From assembly GCA_031281945.1 (NCBI GenBank), contig JAITER010000027.1:1-62123 (forward strand): 62,123 nucleotides of DNA, in the 5' to 3' direction. The translations under genes were made by a program, and so were the position numbers. This DNA comes from Spirochaetaceae bacterium. GTDB taxonomy: Bacteria; Spirochaetota; Spirochaetia; Treponematales; Breznakiellaceae. The notes beneath the pieces were generated by a model that was given only the letters and a program-made list of their open reading frames with translations, did no database searches and was not told the origin of the DNA. Position 1 is the stretch's first letter. Every line of letters starts with the position of its first letter. Shown here piece after piece: positions 1-8,212 of this stretch.

Positions 1-646
1 TCTCCCAGTAGTTGTAAAAACCTAAACGCAACCGAGATGTAAACGCATCCTATTAGGTTTATATTTGTATTTATTTGAGTTTGCAGAAAAGGATGTATTT
101 TAAAAAGTTCGTAAAAAAGGATAGAAAATTCTTTTTCTACGGTACTCATATTTGTATAAATATGAATTTGTTTGTAATTTCCCGCAAAAAACCGCCTGGC
201 AAAAAATCCGTATCTGTAAGGTATGAAACATGGTTTTGAATATTTTTTGTTGTAGTATATTTCGTTGCGCGAAATTTTCCAGTCGTAAACATTAGGAATT
301 AAATATTCATGTAATTCAAAAGGATATGTAAAATTAATTTTAAAGTTTAGGTTTAATTCTTTACAGATTTTATACACGGAGACTATACCTTTCAGCCTGT
401 CGGCCAGTCCGCCATAAGTTAATTTTTCATCCGCCATAAATATAACGGTTTTTGAATGTGTAGACTGCGGGGGGGGGGGGGGGGTTTATAGTGTTTTAAA
501 AGGTCCTGACATTTTGAAATATTCTCAAAATATACGCCTATAAACGGAAAAATTAAATTTCTTTTTCGGGCTAACACAATCCTTGTTTCGATAGGGATTA
601 AAGAATGGTAAATTTTTCGCAAAAAATCATAACAGTTTCTTAACAT
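1..646 (-). CDS. phase-variable glycosyltransferase-like protein, OFF register, partial
   Basis: Reading leftward from ATG 644-646 there is an N-terminal segment of about 53 residues (FLRKIYHSLIPIETRIV and so on). It runs into 16 C on the coding strand, read as five prolines, and then stops 15 codons later near 419. A different frame directly after the tract is open to the window edge, about 155 codons. It contains YGGLADRLKGIVSVYKI followed by NFTYPFELHEYLIPNVYDW. A GGLxDRL-type motif near the N-terminus recalls nucleotide-sugar-dependent fucosyltransferase-like enzymes; that assignment is inference. With 14 or 17 C the two halves would join in frame; with 16 the product is truncated. The alternative is that translation begins at the ATG at codon 11 of the downstream half (MADEKLTYGG) and the tract lies in the leader. 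No good Shine-Dalgarno is visible at 646. The C-terminus lies outside the window. Confidence 0.6.
469..484. repeat. homopolymeric G16 tract (phase-variation switch)
   Basis: There are sixteen consecutive G on the + strand, by far the longest homopolymer of its kind in the window; the next G run is 8 bases, at 6848-6855. It sits at the exact junction of two open frames of one minus-strand gene. Tracts of this length slip readily during replication in other bacteria. A sequencing miscount is the main alternative. Confidence 0.9.
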
Positions 647-7986: not shown

Positions 7987-8212
7987 ATTCAAGGTTAATG
8001 TTTTTCGCGGTTCATTTGTTCCGGCTGGCGCACCGCAACTTTTGAAAAACAAGCTTTATATACAAATATTCGAATTCACGAATAAAACAACTACTACAAA
8101 CATCGGATGTTTTTACAATAAACTTTATCTCTTAAAAAGAGCTCTCCGTAAATTATAAACGGCTTGCAACTATTGGTTTTTATAAGATGTTGAATATAGT
8201 TTGGGTAAAAAG

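Follow-up and report, generated by a model that had tools for sequence, protein, structure and literature searches.

A run of 16 identical bases lies near one end of a 62,123-nucleotide contig from a Spirochaetaceae bacterium, and it raises the question of whether the gene that it interrupts is broken, misassembled or switchable. The whole contig (C38, referred to here as the window) was analyzed; it is one of 99 contigs in a draft assembly of 2.49 Mb. By sequence count, positions 469-484 hold 16 consecutive G on the plus strand, that is, C16 on the coding strand of a minus-strand gene. Two open frames of this gene meet at the run, as the initial annotation had stated. The minus-strand ORF 646-419 reads into the tract and ends after 75 residues, while the downstream frame has a stop codon immediately before the tract, followed by 155 open codons to the contig end. 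As the downstream frame is closed directly before the run, the frame change must fall inside the run itself. The halves are offset by one step, and adding one base or removing two fuses them, which bears out the earlier claim that a tract of 17 or 14 would join them. The upstream coding half comprises residues 1-54 (MLRNCYDF...LLKHYK; 485-646, minus strand), and the downstream half occupies 3-467 on the same strand, where the gene is truncated at base 1 of the window, the contig edge. The next G/C run by length has 8 bases in this window, and under a first-order Markov model the expected number of runs of at least 16 in 62 kb is 3.8e-5; the homopolymer is far longer than chance would produce.

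We consider it likely that this is a phase-variable, or contingency, gene for a fucosyltransferase-fold enzyme, controlled by a poly-C translational switch. In such a switch, slipped-strand mispairing at replication would lengthen or shorten the C run that follows codon 54. The whole protein would be made from one frame in three, and the other frames would stop shortly past the run, giving, at a run length of 16, a predicted OFF product of 75 amino acids (419-646, minus strand). As the length of a run in a draft assembly cannot be trusted to one base, the statement that the gene is currently OFF is weaker than the statement that the junction is switchable, and the window copy is only putatively OFF. 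The run length presumably varies in living cells.

If the run is a switch, then a second copy of the gene may carry it at another length. A single full-length relative was found in the same genome, on contig C78, with 65% identity. At the matching codon position this paralogue carries 14 C, and the frames of its two halves show the identical offset. Run length thus differs between the homologous copies, 16 in the window and 14 in the paralogue. Elsewhere, the genome contains 152 G/C runs of at least 10. Among the runs examined that lie 300 bases or more from a contig end, lengths are bell-shaped with a mode of 15 (5 runs of 13, 16 of 14, 24 of 15 and 8 of 16), where chance predicts a falling tail. 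Where 50 or more codons are open to either side of a run, and leaving out two runs in a GC-rich repeat block, 8 of 11 runs sit at a frame change; of 2738 coding points drawn at random from the window, 218 do. The figure of 8 of 11 is close to the two thirds expected under random phase.

These counts bear on the alternative that survives best, namely that the cell has an intact gene with a fixed-length, proline-coding run that was miscounted in assembly. Several of the 99 contigs of the draft end in G runs and long runs commonly carry one-base errors, both of which favor a miscount. However, the two copies differ in length and are both out of frame, run lengths elsewhere spread over 12-16 about their mode, and coding runs open on both sides interrupt the frame about as often as random phase predicts. 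We regard a fixed and miscounted run as improbable. The initial annotation had also raised assembly error: a one-base error in the window's run is possible, but an error cannot explain the run itself, given the run of the 65% identical paralogue, the roughly 150 others with their bell-shaped lengths and the runs of congeners.

The two copies also show whether the gene is still under constraint. Their upstream halves both start with ML, and the predicted frame is the only one in which they align as protein, with a score of 86, compared to at most 26 for other frame pairs and 50 for the best of 1000 shuffles. Between window gene and paralogue, pS is 0.85 and pN 0.36 in the upstream half, and 0.67 and 0.22 in the downstream half. 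By this measure, pN being well below pS, both halves are conserved as protein in the two copies. A decaying pseudogene, in which slippage inactivated the gene for good, would fit the observations that both copies are out of frame as assembled and that the gene of a relative, G579, appears frameshifted as well. But nonsynonymous change is held down upstream and downstream of the run, neither copy contains an additional stop or shift in its aligned part, and promoter-like sites are kept in both; permanent decay is thus quite improbable.

A contingency switch in the coding sequence further predicts that the run lies inside the gene. Among 393 phylum genomes searched, two convincing relatives lie outside the source genome, in another family of the same order, and the gene is thus rare. 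A scan of a contig collection (genome_contigs) with the two-sequence alignment found no relatives, nor did searches of viral contigs and plasmids. The homologue in G563 (locus L171) has no run and codes through the tract-equivalent site. Its coding start lies about 45 residues ahead of the strand that, in the window gene, comes after the tract, and the tract is therefore inside the gene. A homologue beginning after the tract would speak against a switch, as the initial annotation pointed out, and L171 begins before the tract site. The stop before the run, the coding constraint on both sides and this tract-free homologue together show that a change in run length would alter the frame of a real gene.

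Upstream of the gene, a sigma70-like promoter, TTGATT-17-TACAAT, lies at 665-693 on the minus strand, 19 nt before ATG646, and the paralogue has TTGAAA-17-TATAAT at the matching place (11 of 12 positions); both are consensus matches only. Farther upstream on the minus strand are a terminator-like hairpin at 793-823, also a consensus match only, and then gap, the glyceraldehyde-3-phosphate dehydrogenase gene, at 840-1898. The hairpin separates gap from the window gene; in the congener G002, a different gene follows gap. We saw no clear ribosome-binding site before ATG646, and a consensus scan found no promoter-like site between the tract and an internal ATG at 435-437 (ATG437, minus strand). 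As the gene's own promoter-like site is about 180 nt upstream of a run that lies inside the ORF, the run would act via translation and leave promoter spacing unaffected. This placement separates it from the poly-G runs of Treponema pallidum, such as that of tprL (PMC7864442). T. pallidum belongs to the same spirochete order and has many loci with poly-G length variation, but the tprL run is in the promoter region and has 7-11 G, whereas the window's run has 16, lies in coding sequence and not in a promoter, and belongs to a glycan gene in a different family.

Translation might nevertheless start at ATG437, past the run, in which case the run would lie upstream of the gene or in its promoter and control transcript level, as happens in the tpr promoters of T. 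pallidum. The initial annotation had likewise listed a start inside the downstream half. ATG437 is only 31 bp past the run, and many runs in this genome sit 26-260 bp ahead of an ORF start. Yet L171 begins about 45 residues earlier, and ATG437 falls within the first predicted strand (VIF-M-AD), where the preceding residues VIF belong to a conserved segment. The upstream half is conserved as protein, and the promoter-like site precedes that half, with none found after the run. We consider this start very improbable. Long homopolymers can make RNA polymerase and ribosomes slip, and both assembled copies need the identical shift, but recoding on the C run to yield some full-length protein at any DNA length is just as improbable, as run length is not conserved between the copies and many runs are intergenic, where recoding is meaningless.

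The initial annotation had called the product glycosyltransferase-like. The proteins of the window gene, its paralogue and its homologue matched no Pfam or NCBIfam family above threshold, and sequence searches of the PDB gave one chance-level match or none. An AlphaFold model built from the paralogue alignment was dropped (pLDDT 39.7). A model of L171 from five sequences reached a mean pLDDT of 57.8, mostly 65-91 across residues 170-330. When this model was compared to the PDB with Foldseek, the leading matches were all fucosyltransferases, namely NodZ (E 2.6e-6), POFUT2, FUT8, plant FUT1 and POFUT1. VIA-align gave NodZ a Z of 13.6 over 199 residues and placed fucosyltransferases in the first 43 rows, with other folds at Z of 8.7 or less. 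An ISxxxR segment that comes after a strand shows conservation in the family alignment and is a candidate for the superfamily's arginine motif that binds GDP-fucose. The predicted fold is closest to the alpha-1,6-fucosyltransferase NodZ (PDB 2hhc, 3six) and to FUT8/POFUT, at about 13% identity and without a sequence-family match. We conclude that the gene encodes a predicted fucosyltransferase-fold protein of the NodZ/FUT8/POFUT type, with partial model confidence; it resembles this superfamily by fold and is a member of no named family. The earlier assignment is in this way supported and narrowed, and the encoded protein may well have fucosyl activity, presumably toward a surface target.

The window's downstream half ends near residue 168, at the contig edge. 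Contig C34 opens, at 7-342, with residues approximately 187-300 of the same family. Two contig ends with complementary, non-overlapping pieces suggest one gene, and the window gene probably continues on C34. The next gene on C34 encodes a GT10 fucosyltransferase (Pfam PF00852, PF18025; L081:329-1415) with a G13 run in its 'GCIPIYTG' region, and its last 74 codons are out of frame. It is followed by a Maf-like glycosyltransferase gene and then by a weak FkbM methyltransferase match. By analogy, the logic of the window locus is best read as close to that of Helicobacter pylori futA, futB and futC (PMC2752801), which are likewise fucosyltransferase genes with a poly-C run in their 5' part. There, slipped-strand mispairing switches expression, whereas here switching is proposed from sequence; both genomes have more than one fucosyltransferase gene with a run. 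The present gene differs from the H. pylori genes in that it belongs to a NodZ/FUT8/POFUT-like fold subgroup without a Pfam match, beside a GT10 gene, in a spirochete.

The window locus therefore belongs to a known type, and the genome-wide repertoire is more interesting than the single locus. We studied the context of runs in stretches around the first approximately 100 listed run positions. Among 30 tract-associated ORFs, which were chosen non-randomly, 10 are genes for glycan transfer or modification: a GT2, two of GT4 type, a GT8, a GT92, two pyruvyl transferases, an acyltransferase-3, a UDP-sugar dehydrogenase and an FkbM methyltransferase. Two further ORFs of the 30 encode surface-repeat proteins, and a background set of ten other window genes contained no glycosyltransferases. 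As one of a genome-wide poly-G/C set with many members on glycan genes, the proposed switch would contribute to differing mixes of surface sugars within one population. The Campylobacter poly-G phasome likewise consists of genome-wide poly-G/C loci, mostly in reading frames, according to the PhasomeIt report (PMC6321876). It gives lengths peaking at 9-10 and 81 putative loci, at a cut-off of 7, in one rich strain, compared to roughly 150 runs of at least 10 with a mode of 15 here.

Relatives carry such runs as well. Across 59 genomes, runs of at least 11 number 147 in the source genome, 0 to 95 in the rest of its family and 0 to 10 outside it. The mode of run length in congeners is also 15-16, and in G024 it is 11-12. 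At orthologous runs in congeners the flanks mostly mismatch, and these gave no clean comparison of length at the same locus across species. The source genome (G000), which has more G runs than any other, has possibly lost mismatch repair. MutL (PF01119), present in 57 of the 59 genomes, was not found in this genome, which is 94.9% complete, and a full congener MutL used as query returned nothing from it even at E 10; MutS is intact (L236:3378-6029). An assembly gap could explain the absence of MutL. In Neisseria, phase-variation rates tend to be raised where MutS or MutL has been lost, according to work cited in PMC5084427.

A 2025 review (PMC11868660) describes the apparent restriction of genomes rich in phase-variable loci to pathogens as a major open question. 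Neither a paper on Breznakiellaceae (PMC13067680) nor a spirochete-genome preprint, both from the open-licence literature, mentions phase variation or homopolymers. Many candidate loci are present in this genome and in several relatives, in a lineage not described as pathogenic. Breznakiellaceae are known mainly from termite guts and from free-living species, and the source organism presumably comes from a termite-type gut. It is possible, although we hold the idea only tentatively and think it doubtful, that a lineage of gut-type spirochetes with no known pathogenicity has one of the largest homopolymer phasomes recorded, favored in this species by loss of mutL, and that it thereby shuffles surface glycans, including fucose added by two or more switchable fucosyltransferases. 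Should read data show the runs to vary, then the restriction to pathogens may be a sampling artefact. A gut symbiont that randomly varies its sugars would, if real, suggest pressures from phages, protists or hosts that are testable outside disease.

A single mobile repeat was rejected as the source of the runs, as flanks are common only within small clusters and such a repeat would not account for most runs. A GT4 gene at C1:27949 was considered as split by its own run and was also rejected, because the upstream ORF stops ahead of the run. At L021:1737-1752 (C9:16936), the gene for a large protein without a Pfam match contains a C16 run, which separates a short start (MKTKSYS) from a hydrophobic, signal-like segment. 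A GC-rich repeat family with embedded G/C runs, which differ in kind from the genome's other runs, occurs at L031, L032, L033, L049 and L022 (contigs C9, C20 and C36). The C78 paralogue and L171 each adjoin a related-looking methyltransferase-like gene, a similarity judged by eye; these neighbors are in keeping with a role in glycan building. Also on C78 (L050:6941-6955 and 8090-8103), two intergenic C runs approximately 1.1 kb apart, with flanks that are 91% identical, precede a methyltransferase-like and an acyltransferase-3 gene.
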